This document shows positions 58,687 to 64,000 of a DNA stretch of 64,000 nt, piece after piece. Location of the stretch: NCBI RefSeq assembly GCF_023168405.1, contig NZ_AP025285.1, positions 310,001 through 374,000 of the forward strand. The letters run 5' to 3'. Source of the DNA: Leptogranulimonas caecicola (GTDB lineage Bacteria; Actinomycetota; Coriobacteriia; Coriobacteriales; Atopobiaceae). Position 1 is the stretch's first letter. Every line of letters starts with the position of its first letter. The notes beneath the pieces are model-generated. The model was not told the DNA's origin, ran no database searches, and saw nothing but the letters and a program-made list of their open reading frames with translations. A program made the position numbers and the translations under genes.

Positions 58687-59061
58687 CTAGTGCCTAGGTG
58701 TGTGGTTGGAGTCAGAGGTATCGCTAGGGCTGACGACATCCTTCTGAGCGGTTCCTCCGTGATTGATGGTGTGCGCCAAAGGATGCTTCTGCAAAAAGAG
58801 CATGGACACAAAGCCCAAGATGCACAGGGGCACGAAGTAGCCAAAGGGCGGCACCAGCGCCTCGCTGTAGCCGGTGGCGATGATGGACTGCACCGATGCC
58901 GGGAGCTTCTCCATGTAGGTGGGGGTAAGCGATGCCAGCGAGATGTTGTCTGCTTTGGGCAAGAGGGGAGCGACGTCAGCCACCAAGCGGGAGGTGAACA
59001 GCGATCCCACCAGCGAGGTGCCCAGCGTGGCGCCTAACGAGGTCTCTACCCATGAAGGCAC
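58687..59061 (-). pseudogene. C-terminal remnant of an MFS drug transporter
   Basis: The 124-residue open frame matches only the last quarter of DHA2/EmrB-type transporters: ETSLGATLGTSLVGSLFTSR, then FGYFVPLCILGFVSMLFLQ as the final membrane helix and a hydrophilic tail. In the same frame upstream there is a stop (TAA) three codons before, and no other MFS sequence is found in the next 500 bases. A start MQANLK preceded by AGAGATGAC lies just before that stop, as if a large internal deletion joined gene ends. Confidence 0.7.
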
Positions 59062-59615: not shown

Positions 59616-60701
59616 GTGGCCAACGCAGCCAATGCAGCCATCGGCACGCCAGCCGCTGCCTATGTCATAGATGACGGGACCTTAAGCGCCTTCTTTGAGA
59701 CCATGGCCGTCCTTATGGACGCCGGCATTCAAATTGACGAGGCTCTTTCCATGCTGGCGGAAGATGCCGCAGACACCCTCAAAGCCACCTATGGTTCCAT
59801 GTATGAGCAGGTAGCGGCAGGCCATACGCTGGCAAAAGCCATGGAGGCGTCAGGGGCGTTTCCCACCTATGCCACCACATTGGTGATCCAGGGCATCGCC
59901 ATGGGCCGGCTTCATGAAACTTTGATGTCGTTAGCCCGCTATTACGGCGACCAGGATCGCATCCTCACGCGCATCAAAACCAGCCTAGGTTATCCTGCAG
60001 CGCTTTTGTGCGGCATGTCGTTAGTGCTGGCTTTTACGGTCATAGGCGTGCTGCCGGTGTTCATCAACGTCTACGAGAATCTTTCCGGCAGTCTCACCGA
60101 AGGGTCGTTCTCCCAGGTCACACTAGCTCTCACGGTGGGCTGGGTGGTGCTTGTCGTCACGGTGATCGCTGCGGTGGCGGCCCTTTGGGTCGCCTCCCTT
60201 GCCCGCAATTCCAAGGGACATGACAAGCTCATGCACCTTTTGGAGCGCATCCCGCCCACCCAGGAGGCTGCCTATGGCCTGGCGCTGTCGCGCATGGTGG
60301 CGGGGCTCTCCACCAATATCTCCTCAGGCACCAACGTGGACGAGGCGGTGGCGGCCGCCGCAGCCGGGACGTCTCATCCCGTGCTGCATTTGAGGACCAC
60401 GCAGGCTCACAAGCTCATGGTTGCTTCCGACGATCCTCAGGGCCTGGTGCCTGCGCTGGTGGCAGCCCAGGTCATCGACCCGGTCTATGGGCGTCTGCTG
60501 GGTATCACTGTACGCTCAGGCGGCATCGACGAGTCGCTGGAAGCCCTTTCAGAAGACCTGGCCCGCGAGTCTATGGACAGCCTTCTGGCGACTATCGACG
60601 GCGTGGAGCCGCTTTTGTCGGCATTTTTAACCGTGGCCGTAGGCGCCACGCTGCTGGCCATCATGCTGCCGTTGGTGGGCATCATGGCCTCGTTAGCCTG
60701 A
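59616..60701 (+). CDS. GspF/PilC/ComGB-type platform protein
   Basis: The 361-residue inner-membrane protein has two T2SF domains (FFETMAVLMDAGIQIDEALSM at about 26-46 and LALSRMVAGLSTNISSGTNV at about 222-241), with membrane helices near 130-155, 172-195 and at the C terminus. It is the platform on which type IV pili, type II secretion or competence pseudopili assemble. The GTG start follows AGGAGGGG. It begins an operon with four pilin-like proteins and a PilT-like ATPase. Confidence 0.88.
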   Translation: MANAANAAIGTPAAAYVIDDGTLSAFFETMAVLMDAGIQIDEALSMLAEDAADTLKATYGSMYEQVAAGHTLAKAMEASGAFPTYATTLVIQGIAMGRLHETLMSLARYYGDQDRILTRIKTSLGYPAALLCGMSLVLAFTVIGVLPVFINVYENLSGSLTEGSFSQVTLALTVGWVVLVVTVIAAVAALWVASLARNSKGHDKLMHLLERIPPTQEAAYGLALSRMVAGLSTNISSGTNVDEAVAAAAAGTSHPVLHLRTTQAHKLMVASDDPQGLVPALVAAQVIDPVYGRLLGITVRSGGIDESLEALSEDLARESMDSLLATIDGVEPLLSAFLTVAVGATLLAIMLPLVGIMASLA

Positions 60702-60790
60702 TGGCGCAGCCCGCGCGATCGACCAGACCGCTTGGTCGACCCCTGCCCGTGCATGAATCCTGCTGCGGTTAAGAGAGGAGTGAGAATCTA

Positions 60791-61114
60791 ATGGCCCGCC
60801 CTGTAGCTCAGGCTGCCTTCGCCCATCGCCGCCATCCCGGAGTCTACCTGCTGGTGATTCTGGTGGCGGCAGCGTGTGTGGCGCTGGCGGTGGTGCGTGC
60901 CCAGGTGCATGCCGCCGAGCAGGGAACGGCGGCGCTTCGCACCTCGATCCTCAATGCCTCGGCCCAGTGCGCGGCGGTGGAGGGGGCCTATCCCTCCAGC
61001 TTGGACCATCTGGTGGAAGCCTACGGCATCCGTTTCGACCCCGAGGTCTACGACGTGCGCTATGAGGTCTTTGCCGACAACGTGGCCCCCACAGTGCAGG
61101 TGATGCGCCGATGA
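60791..61114 (+). CDS. Pilin-like protein, 107 aa
   Basis: A short basic N terminus is followed by a hydrophobic helix (GVYLLVILVAAACVALAVV, about residues 17-35) and an 70-residue soluble part with Cys55 and the pilin-typical spacing AYPSSLDHLVEAYGI. It resembles a minor pseudopilin, but the usual Glu at position 5 of the mature form is not present. ATG follows AGAGGAG. It overlaps the next gene by four bases. Confidence 0.68.
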   Translation: MARPVAQAAFAHRRHPGVYLLVILVAAACVALAVVRAQVHAAEQGTAALRTSILNASAQCAAVEGAYPSSLDHLVEAYGIRFDPEVYDVRYEVFADNVAPTVQVMRR

Positions 61115-61662
61115 CACCGCCCACGCTGCCTCACGAAAACCTCCTGCGGGCCAAAGGGACGCTGGCGATAGCCCAGGGCCATAGACCCGCTGCCCAAAAG
61201 ATGCACCCTATGAGCACCATCTTGGTCATCCTTCTGCTGCTGGCAAGCGTTGCTGCGCTGGGTGTGGGCGCCCAAGTCTACAGCTCCATCCACCAGGCAT
61301 CCTTGACCGACGACTCCAGTCGCCTGGCCTCGGCTTTGCTTTCCAACACCGTGCGCTCCCAGGATCGCGCTCTCGCAGTGGAGAGCACCCCGGGTCCTGA
61401 GGGCCCTGTGCTCAAGCTGGTCTCTCATCTAGATTCCGGCGACTATGAGACGCGCCTCTATCTCTATCAGGGTCAGGTGGTGCGCGAGTTCGCCTTGGCT
61501 GCAAGCCCGCTCACTCCCCAGAGCGCGGTACCGATAATGCCTTCCAAGAGCTTCTCCTTTGCCCTGGAGGGAGACCTGCTTACCCTTGCTACCGATAAGG
61601 GCGCCACTTCGGTGGCTCTAAGAAGCCCGCAGTCCCCGCAATCTTTGGGGGTGGGGGCATGA
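61111..61662 (+). CDS. Pilin-like protein, 183 aa (DUF4860-like)
   Basis: After a 30-residue basic leader comes a hydrophobic helix (TILVILLLLASVAALGVGAQ, about residues 36-55) and a soluble domain of beta character (ETRLYLYQGQVVREFALAAS). I place it with DUF4860-type pilin-like proteins with modest confidence. It overlaps both neighbours by four bases (ATGA), so it is translated with them. A start at an internal Met near residue 31 would give a more usual leader. Confidence 0.65.
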   Translation: MTPPTLPHENLLRAKGTLAIAQGHRPAAQKMHPMSTILVILLLLASVAALGVGAQVYSSIHQASLTDDSSRLASALLSNTVRSQDRALAVESTPGPEGPVLKLVSHLDSGDYETRLYLYQGQVVREFALAASPLTPQSAVPIMPSKSFSFALEGDLLTLATDKGATSVALRSPQSPQSLGVGA

Positions 61663-62156
61663 AGCAGCTCAAAGCTCCCGGCTTTATGGCCCCTAAAGCC
61701 CCTCGTTGGGCTTCGCGAGCTCTCATCATCGAGGCGTTGGTGCTGATGGCGGTGCTCTCTTGCTGCATCGCCATCGTTGCCCAAGGCCTGTCTGTGGCGG
61801 CAGCCACTGCGCTGGACGCCCAGCAACTCACTCAAGCCTCGGCCTATGCCTCAGAGATGGCCGAGCGTTTTTGTGCAAATCCCGAGCAAGTGCCCGTGGA
61901 AGAGATCTCCGGCGATCTGCAGGTGGTGGTGGCCCGCACCAGCGAGCCTACCTCCACAGGAACCCTTTGGCGTGCCACCATCCTGGTCTATCCGGTAGGT
62001 CCCCAAGGACAAAAGGTCGAAGCATCGGAGGCTTTGGGAGCAGCCCAGGCTGGAGCGGCTGCAGGCGACTCTGAGGCCCAAGAGGTCTCTCGGGTGGTCC
62101 AGGAGCCTCTCTGCTCGCTTGCCACCGCACGCTTCGTGCCCAGGGAGGTGAGCTGA
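61659..62156 (+). CDS. Prepilin-like protein, 165 aa
   Basis: The N terminus is basic, then RALIIEALVLMAVLSCC gives a hydrophobic helix with Glu at position 5 if cleavage precedes ALIIE. This is the best pilin signature in the operon, though the preceding residue is Arg instead of Gly. The soluble part contains one Cys and an Ala/Gln-rich segment. It overlaps the upstream gene by four bases. Confidence 0.68.
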   Translation: MKQLKAPGFMAPKAPRWASRALIIEALVLMAVLSCCIAIVAQGLSVAAATALDAQQLTQASAYASEMAERFCANPEQVPVEEISGDLQVVVARTSEPTSTGTLWRATILVYPVGPQGQKVEASEALGAAQAGAAAGDSEAQEVSRVVQEPLCSLATARFVPREVS

Positions 62157-62159
62157 TCT

Positions 62160-62624
62160 ATGGCTCCACGTACGTCTGAGCCGGGTATTCGCCCGGGTCC
62201 CATGAGCCTGTTGGTGCTCACCCTGGTGGTGTGTTTATCGGTACTTTGCTGCTTGGCATTGGCTACCGCTGCCGCCTCCAACCACAGGGCAGAGATGCAA
62301 ACTTCTATCATGGTGGACTCCTACGCCAACGAGCTGGAGGCTCAAGAGCTTTTGAGCCATGCATCTGAGCTCTGTGCCAGCTCGGGTGCGCAAGGCCTTG
62401 CGGCTTTGGCTCAACAGGCCTCGCAGCTTTGGCCGGATTGCACTGCCAGCTATGAGGAAGGCAGGTTTCAGGCCTATTTTGCGCAGCCTTCAGGGCGCTC
62501 GCTGACCGTCCAGTTAAGCGTGAGTCCAGAAGGTCAGCTAAAAATCGAGAGCTGGTGCGCCGGCATGGAGTGGGAGGAGCCTTCCGGCCAATGGTGGCCT
62601 GGGCCTTCCTCGGCCACGCCCTAA
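62160..62624 (+). CDS. Pilin-like protein, 154 aa
   Basis: A Pro/Arg-rich leader precedes a hydrophobic helix (SLLVLTLVVCLSVLCCLALA, about residues 16-35) that lacks the Glu of typical pilins, then a soluble region with two or three Cys (SELCASS, WPDCTAS, SWCAGM) that may form disulphides. Four bases separate it from the upstream gene. Confidence 0.62.
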   Translation: MAPRTSEPGIRPGPMSLLVLTLVVCLSVLCCLALATAAASNHRAEMQTSIMVDSYANELEAQELLSHASELCASSGAQGLAALAQQASQLWPDCTASYEEGRFQAYFAQPSGRSLTVQLSVSPEGQLKIESWCAGMEWEEPSGQWWPGPSSATP

Positions 62625-62695
62625 AGGGGCGGCGGCGACTTTAGCTGCAACTTTTGTTCTGTTGTGCCCTTTGTTTAGACCTCAAGGAGGATCTG

Positions 62696-63769
62696 GTGGA
62701 TATCTCAGCATTGCTTGCTTCTATGATCGAGAAGAACGCCTCGGACGTGTTCTTTGTGGCGGGCTTGCCTATCACCTGGGCCTCCGCAGGGCAGCAGCAC
62801 AGGCTTGACGGCGGCCCCCTCATGCCCCAGGACACCCAGGAGGTCGTCGAGGCAATCTACGGGTTGGCGGGCCGCTCTATGGCGCCGTTTTTGGAGTCTC
62901 GCAACCACGACGACGACTTCTCCTTTGCCGTGGGCGGCGTGGGGCGCTTCAGGGTGAACGTCTTTAGGCAGCGCGGCAGTTTAGGGGCAGTGATCCGCGT
63001 GATTCCCTTCGCTCTGCCGCGTCCCGAGGAGTTGGGCATCCCAGACCAGGTCATGGACTGCGCTTCTTTCAACAAGGGGTTGGTGCTGGTTACAGGCCCC
63101 GCTGGCGCAGGCAAGTCAACCACTTTGGCCTGCCTTATCGACCGCTTGAACCATAGCCGCTCTGGCCACATTGTGACCATGGAGGACCCCATCGAGTTCG
63201 TGCACAGGCACAACACCTGCATCGTGACGCAGCGCGAGATCCCCACCGATGTGGCTACCTATGGCGAGGCCCTTCGCAGCGCCATGCGCGAGAGCCCCGA
63301 CGTCATCCTGCTGGGCGAGATGCGCGACCGCGAGACGGTGTCTACCGCGGTCACCGCAGCAGAGACCGCTCAGCTGCTTTTCTCCACTCTGCATACCACT
63401 GGCGGCGCCTCTACCATCGATCGCATCGTTGACTTCTTCGATCCGGTCCAACAGCACCAGATCCGCCTGCAGCTGGCCATGGTGCTTCAGGCGGTGGTCT
63501 CCCAGCAACTGGTGCCCACAGTCGATGGGGGAGTGGCGGCAGCTTTCGAAGTCATGGTGGCCAACACCGCCATCCGCAACCTCATTCGCGAGCAAAAGAC
63601 CCACCAGATCGACTCGGTCATTGCTGCGAGCGCCCAGGAAGGCATGATCTCCATGGACGCCAGCCTCTTCGAGCTGGTGAAGTCGGGCCAGGTAAGCTCT
63701 GAGACTGCCCTGCGCTATGCCAACCACACCGAGTCGCTGGCGCGCCGCCTCAAGGCAGCCGGGGTCTAA
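62696..63769 (+). CDS. PilT/VirB11-type secretion ATPase
   Basis: The 357-residue hexameric ATPase of the pilus retraction type has Walker A GPAGAGKSTTLACL (about residues 133-146), Asp box MEDPIEFVH, the Walker B region DVILLGEMRDRETVSTAVTA and the AAETAQLLFSTLHTTGGAS motif. The N domain, starting VDISALLASMIEKNASDVFF, matches PilT-like proteins. GTG at 62696 follows AAGGAGG. No PilB/GspE assembly ATPase or prepilin peptidase is in the window, so it either powers extension too or those are encoded elsewhere. Confidence 0.88.
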   Translation: MDISALLASMIEKNASDVFFVAGLPITWASAGQQHRLDGGPLMPQDTQEVVEAIYGLAGRSMAPFLESRNHDDDFSFAVGGVGRFRVNVFRQRGSLGAVIRVIPFALPRPEELGIPDQVMDCASFNKGLVLVTGPAGAGKSTTLACLIDRLNHSRSGHIVTMEDPIEFVHRHNTCIVTQREIPTDVATYGEALRSAMRESPDVILLGEMRDRETVSTAVTAAETAQLLFSTLHTTGGASTIDRIVDFFDPVQQHQIRLQLAMVLQAVVSQQLVPTVDGGVAAAFEVMVANTAIRNLIREQKTHQIDSVIAASAQEGMISMDASLFELVKSGQVSSETALRYANHTESLARRLKAAGV

Positions 63770-63871: not shown

Positions 63872-64000
63872 ATGACCATCTTTCATGCTCCTGCCATAGG
63901 CTCCAATGGGGACATCGCCTGCCCTGTGGTTGGGGCTGAAGTCTCCCAAGAGTTTCTTGATCGTATTCCTGGCGGCATCTTTCGCTACTGCGCAGACGAC
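63872..64000 (+). CDS. Probable PAS-domain signalling protein, N-terminal fragment
   Basis: The first 43 codons of a gene cut by the window edge. The peptide EFLDRIPGGIFRYCADD resembles the start of PAS domains that precede GGDEF/EAL domains in cyclic-di-GMP enzymes. If so, it could set second-messenger levels near the pilus-like operon, which is inference. ATG follows AGGGAT. Confidence 0.5.
   Translation, partial: MTIFHAPAIGSNGDIACPVVGAEVSQEFLDRIPGGIFRYCADD

Follow-up and report, generated by a model that had tools for sequence, protein, structure and literature searches.

A conserved type IV filament-like operon in Coriobacteriales with a PilT-clade ATPase, no PilB, and a transglutaminase-like lipoprotein as its most constant partner

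We analyzed a stretch of 64,000 nucleotides from the genome of Leptogranulimonas caecicola (positions 310,001 to 374,000 of NZ_AP025285.1), which we will call the window. Near its end is a compact operon that encodes a platform protein, four small pilin-like proteins (P2 to P5), and an ATPase of the PilT clade. Across related loci, a transglutaminase-like lipoprotein is the operon's most constant partner. We see about an even chance that these genes encode a machine in which PilT powers both the assembly and the cycling of a short complex of minor-pilin type, which would serve the lipoprotein. An earlier examination of the DNA letters (the sequence-only reading) had taken these genes for a compact operon related to type IV filaments, with divergent pilins and no motor other than a PilT-type ATPase, and the gene content supports this. 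It also had the gene order and the coordinates right. The genes, with their positions in the window, are:

59616 to 60701, plus strand: platform protein, GspF/PilC-like, 361 amino acids, with two T2SSF domains (PF00482, 1.1e-25)
60791 to 61114, plus strand: P2, 107 amino acids; described from alignments, with no family match and no predicted fold
61111 to 61662, plus strand: P3, 183 amino acids, DUF4860 (PF16152, 2.6e-14); AlphaFold2 model and structural matches
61659 to 62156, plus strand: P4, 165 amino acids, PilV/GspI-like (weak PilV match, 8e-4)
62160 to 62624, plus strand: P5, 154 amino acids, GspK/pilin-like; AlphaFold2 model and structural matches
62696 to 63769, plus strand: PilT-clade ATPase, 357 amino acids, with the AIRNLIRE motif (TIGR01420, 397 bits)
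63872 to 64000, plus strand: start of a gene for a PAS-GGDEF diguanylate cyclase, which continues past the window (GGDEF, 1.1e-36)

The genes had been described as packed with four-base overlaps. This is true of two of the five junctions (P2/P3 and P3/P4) and not of the other three, which have gaps of 89 bases (platform/P2), 3 bases (P4/P5), and 71 bases (P5/PilT). The platform gene has a GTG start, and its orthologs point to a start close by. The ATPase gene also starts with GTG, preceded by AAGGAGG; we favor this start over the TTG at 62654 because the orthologs start at the equivalent of the GTG.

We searched for related loci with the platform protein as the query; the DUF4860 alignment is too poorly conserved to serve. 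We examined 101 loci. Of these, 21 came from genomes; the other 80, the named loci, are the best 80 of 328 matches to the platform protein and belong to Coriobacteriia wherever the taxon is named, so this set does not bear on Bacillota. (The two sets overlap, and several loci are from the same genomes.) The order platform, P2, P3, P4, P5, PilT is common to all of them, with few departures: contig ends, insertions that split the model matches, two tandem arrays, and two loci without a detected P2. (At L118 and L121, the pilus-like operon is present twice in tandem.) Compared to one genome of the same genus, all six genes have ratios of nonsynonymous to synonymous substitution rates (dN/dS) of 0.025-0.21, which indicates purifying selection. 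Because the gene set recurs in all of the loci and is under purifying selection, its recurrence is far above chance. The operon is a conserved module and not a product of local decay.

A PilT-family protein is above the cut-off in 118 of 299 sampled Coriobacteriales genomes. (The counts of PilT, ComEC, and A24 peptidases across genomes, here and below, were tallied by eye from tables.) Exactly two matches to the PilT model, one strong PilT and one weak, were found in 57 of the 299, which we count as having PilT without PilB. A closer look at 22 genomes of this type, including the window's, showed that the weak match is TadA-like and found no PilB. DUF4860 has no function in Pfam, and we found no paper on it in the literature that we searched. 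Of 396 Actinomycetota genomes, 15 encode DUF4860 above the cut-off, and all 15 also encode a PilT-family protein above the cut-off. The hosts include common gut genera such as Gordonibacter, Adlercreutzia, Slackia, Collinsella, and Olsenella.

The operon's ATPase is a motor of the secretion superfamily (PF00437, 1.7e-36). It passes the PilT model (the cut-off for TIGR01420 is 319 bits), and it falls below the cut-offs for ComGA (115 bits, cut-off 300) and GspE (112 bits, cut-off 630). It is also far under the PilB model. The Walker A and AIRNLIRE motifs are intact. In a maximum-likelihood tree, the operon ATPases form one clade (support 100/99) within the PilT family. This clade, PilT-b, adjoins the PilT proteins of the order's type IV pilus (T4P) loci (93/88) and is distant from PilB. 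Judging by its sequence, the operon's motor truly belongs to the PilT clade, though to a separate branch from the T4P PilT of Coriobacteriales. Members of the PilT family normally retract pili. In a scan with anti-phage models, nothing matched beyond a generic ATPase model (mads_8, 1.1e-6). At another locus, L164 (G039:C8, near 109880), there is a PilT-b gene without the other operon genes in the surrounding 15 kb.

The window's genome is a single contig of 2.0 Mb and is 99% complete. It encodes two real T2SSE ATPases: the operon's PilT, and TadA from a Tad locus at 1.66 Mb, whose genes we take to be Tad genes from their open reading frames. (A third, weak T2SSE match at 1032 kb is ClpX and not a pilus motor.) PilB was not found anywhere in this genome or in 21 other operon-bearing genomes; in six genomes with T4P loci, the PilB model scores 520-548 bits. 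PilM was found in none of 11 operon-bearing genomes, versus all five of the genomes with a full T4P. The only other platform-type genes in the window's genome are two in the Tad locus. The sequence-only reading had reported no assembly ATPase or prepilin peptidase near the operon, which is borne out, and for PilB the absence extends to the whole genome. A complete, separate T4P locus would have spoken against that reading. There is none: Tad is the only other type IV filament locus.

The sole A24 peptidase of this genome (162 amino acids) is encoded beside aroK at 1.29 Mb, which is 0.9 Mb from the operon. (The gene, at L012:9374-9862 on the minus strand, adjoins aroK-aroB and not the Tad locus.) Nearly all operon-bearing genomes and Tad-only genomes have one A24 peptidase; full-T4P Eggerthellaceae often have at least two, and full-T4P genomes from the window's family often have one. 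Since the numbers are alike in operon-bearing and Tad-only genomes, no peptidase comes with the operon.

The four small proteins nearly always lack the canonical prepilin site. Within Coriobacteriales, we found G-x4-E in 0/100 P2, 0/101 P3, 2/101 P4, and 0/99 P5 proteins. As the sequence-only reading had observed, all four proteins in the window are missing the classical Gly cleavage site, and P4 alone has the pilin Glu (SRALIIEALV), which is kept in 100 of 101 P4 homologs. The order's true T4P loci do hold pilins with GFTLxE (in 3 of 10 loci that we scanned), so loss of the site in the operon is not an order-wide habit.

P3 is above the gathering cut-off for DUF4860 (53.4 bits versus 25). Its AlphaFold2 model (pLDDT 86.7) consists of a helix of 55 residues and eight strands, and its top ten structural matches are GspJ, XcpW, or EpsJ chains, a model of XcpGHIJK, and TTHA1219 (Z of 6.6-8.5); the next match drops to Z = 5.7. 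We predict that P3 has the minor-pseudopilin fold of GspJ/XcpW. The AlphaFold2 model of P5 (pLDDT 91.8) combines a helix of 62 residues with a sheet of four strands, and its five best structural matches include PilA (Z = 7.6), XcpX, which is a GspK (6.4 and 5.6), and a competence pilin (5.0). P5 has no Glu; it has an invariant Gly13 at the start of the helix, usually followed by Pro. As modeled, P5 resembles pilins and GspK, with middling structural matches, and Foldseek alone gave no clear match. One P5 homolog matched FixH (1.7e-5, barely over the cut-off), which we dismissed because the AlphaFold2 model has a long helix and a sheet of the pilin type. The P4 profile weakly matches minor pilins from the order's T4P loci (1e-4). 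P2 has a single N-terminal helix without the cleavage Gly or the Glu; in alignments, its tail is conserved, QC(C/A)A.EG.YP.SL..L...YG, and resembles the tail of G-type pilins. P2 and P5 from the window have no credible sequence-family match, and the profiles of P2, P3, and P5 hit no pilin among the PDB sequences. Through P3, and more weakly through P5, the operon is predicted to include the pilin fold of the type IV filament superfamily.

The Coriobacteriales models also found an equivalent operon in Acetoanaerobium noterae, a relative of Clostridium and the single genome that represents the Bacillota in our evidence. The platform (4e-69), P2 (7.5e-26), P3 (9e-22), P5 (4e-14), PilT (7e-139), and transglutaminase (4e-61) were found by their models, and P4 was recognized by its position and by GFTLIE. 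P3 (GVSKVE) and P4 from A. noterae carry canonical prepilin sites, so these sites were probably eroded in Coriobacteriales. For the divergent pilins, this supports descent from a canonical ancestor. When A. noterae is added to the tree, its operon PilT joins the PilT-b clade (92/87), and its T4P PilT branches elsewhere. (The A. noterae record, NZ_CP154629.1 or L166, is filed as a plasmid; at 2.63 Mb, it looks like a chromosome.)

In 74 of the 80 named loci, the gene directly 5' of the platform gene encodes a predicted lipoprotein that has a transglutaminase core. The catalytic Cys, His, and Asp are invariant in 94 of 94 transglutaminase-like lipoproteins. In the window's genome, the transglutaminase-like gene (Transglut_core, 6e-20) is 4.6 kb downstream of PilT, separated from it by genes for a GGDEF protein and a histidine kinase. 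It is beyond the window and therefore escaped the sequence-only reading. Genes for kinase, Hpt, REC-HD-GYP, or GGDEF proteins are near about one third of the related loci, either upstream or downstream depending on the genus, and we consider the GGDEF neighbor (the diguanylate cyclase gene at L009:7872-8876) to be loosely associated with the window's operon. The histidine kinase (L009:9238-12349, genome positions 375238-378349) is broken into two frames that overlap and share a repeated stretch, VVAVIGSMAFLGYAASRFNRSI, a pattern suggestive of a short duplication and a frameshift. On the other side, just 5' of the operon, a 124-residue frame on the minus strand (window positions 58687-59061) resembles the end of a membrane transporter and is possibly a gene remnant.

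According to a recent review, no type IV filament system is without pilins, a prepilin peptidase, an extension ATPase, and a platform (PMC10191384). The operon shares with the Com pilus (comG) its compactness, one platform, one ATPase, a G-like protein, several minor-pilin-like proteins, and the lack of PilM/N/O. It differs in having a PilT-clade ATPase instead of ComGA, pilins without canonical sites, a linked transglutaminase-like lipoprotein, and no tie to ComEC. With the type IVa pilus it shares the platform, PilT with AIRNLIRE, and minor-pilin-like proteins, but it lacks PilB, PilM, and a dedicated PilD. The GspI-J-K proteins of the type II secretion system (T2SS) have counterparts in P4 (GspI/PilV-like), P3 (predicted to be GspJ-like), and P5 (partly GspK-like, without Glu5), but GspE is missing, sequence identity is about 10%, and the host is monoderm. 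In archaea, some T4P loci are linked to surface peptidases of the transglutaminase family (PMC4858521). These clade 1 loci resemble the operon in joining a transglutaminase-fold surface enzyme to T4P genes; they have archaeal pilins and ATPases and no PilT. Because the operon lacks an extension ATPase and canonical prepilin sites, we do not file it as a type IVa pilus, a Com pilus, or a T2SS. On its gene content, we call it a previously undescribed variant within the type IV filament superfamily. The bacterial operon is not described in the literature that we searched, which left most subscription journals outside, and we found no bacterial pairing of PilT with a transglutaminase in a literature covered mostly by titles and abstracts. 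PilT has often been lost in evolution, for instance from Com and T2SS (PMC6668835); the passages of that work that we consulted do not describe the converse, PilT retained without PilB.

The proposed machine would consist of the PilC/GspF platform, a tip or priming complex of I-, J-, and K-like proteins, and the small G/H-like P2. The PilT-clade ATPase, as the only dedicated motor, would dock beneath the platform, and its ATP-driven turning would build a short pilin complex that is anchored in the membrane, and would then cycle it. This complex would be a stub and not a long pilus. At the cell surface, the stub would position, push, or present either the lipoprotein enzyme or the enzyme's substrate. 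We infer that PilT-b powers the two strokes alike, that the subunits are not processed and make no long filament, and that the enzyme is the part that does the machine's work. In the MSHA pili of Vibrio cholerae, PilT helps to initiate assembly and MshE drives processive extension (PMC9815625); by analogy, a PilT-only machine would be expected to make a short complex. That the complex serves the transglutaminase-fold lipoprotein is suggested by the constancy of this partner.

Several points weigh against this proposal. TadA is present in all of the operon-bearing genomes that we examined and could act as the extension motor, and the lone A24 peptidase might process some subunits. P3 and P4 from A. 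noterae look like ordinary prepilins, and that genome has PilB and a second PilT. The structural matches of P5 are middling, and the fold of P2 is not predicted. At four loci, including the one in the window's genome, the transglutaminase gene is not adjacent or lies elsewhere. Finally, we know of no demonstrated assembly of anything by PilT alone. We are more doubtful of a broader proposal, which we offer tentatively: that the operon represents a separate class of type IV filament-derived machine, present in Actinomycetota and Bacillota, that works on a PilT-clade motor alone, with no extension ATPase, dedicated processing, or long polymer. In this class, the priming complex would be a stand-alone device that operates a surface transglutaminase-fold enzyme of monoderm gut bacteria.

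The operon might instead encode an ordinary pilus, for which TadA would be borrowed for extension and the lone A24 peptidase for processing, with PilT-b retracting. This would fit the genomes, since nearly all that bear the operon have TadA and a single A24 peptidase, and sharing of a peptidase between machines is possible (PMC6668835). But the TadA is of a different subfamily and has its own platform pair (TadB/TadC), the canonical sites are nearly absent from the operon's pilin-like proteins, and no G-like subunit has the packing Glu, so we think that this is unlikely. We also doubt, to a similar degree, that the operon encodes a T2SS-like pseudopilus that exports a protein, perhaps a substrate of the transglutaminase, through the cell wall. 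The GspJ-like P3, the partly GspK-like P5, the compact operon, and the constant enzyme partner are what such a secretion role would lead us to expect, but GspE is missing, the operon has no obvious secreted substrate, and the enzyme itself is a predicted lipoprotein. As for a functionless, decaying remnant of a T4P operon, the prepilin sites are eroded relative to the A. noterae copy, the operon is patchy in the order, and G039 retains PilT-b without the rest nearby. However, all six genes are under purifying selection, the gene set stays together in 101 loci, and the motor motifs and the enzyme's catalytic triad are intact. We consider decay very improbable.

The sequence-only reading had also suggested DNA uptake, or else secretion. 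For uptake, a competence pseudopilus would deliver DNA to ComEA/ComEC, with PilT-b replacing ComGA. The window's genome does encode ComEC, at 0.91 Mb (913 kb), and the gene just before it is presumably comEA, judging from its open reading frame. The order of the platform, the G-like protein, and the minor pilins resembles comGB-comGC-comGD-E-F, and Com pili also have a single ATPase (PMC10191384). But ComEA and ComEC are encoded far from the operon, and ComEC is nearly universal: it is in about 177 of the 180 Coriobacteriales genomes that lack a PilT-family protein, compared to about 113 of the 119 that have one. Since these frequencies are alike, ComEC does not track the operon. Also, no part in DNA uptake is known for enzymes of the transglutaminase type, and the Tad locus is an alternative uptake pilus. 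A competence role therefore seems quite unlikely. Overall, ComEC is in 290 of 299 Coriobacteriales genomes, mostly without PilT and PilB, so in many members of the order the Tad pilus may be the only one that DNA uptake could use.

An operon with PilT as its only motor challenges the current view of the minimum parts of a type IV filament machine. It makes it testable whether PilT can build, and not just pull, and it opens the question of what a minor-pilin complex does without a pilus. DUF4860 gains a predicted fold and an operon context. And a link between pili and transglutaminases, which was recorded in archaea (PMC4858521), is now seen in bacteria.

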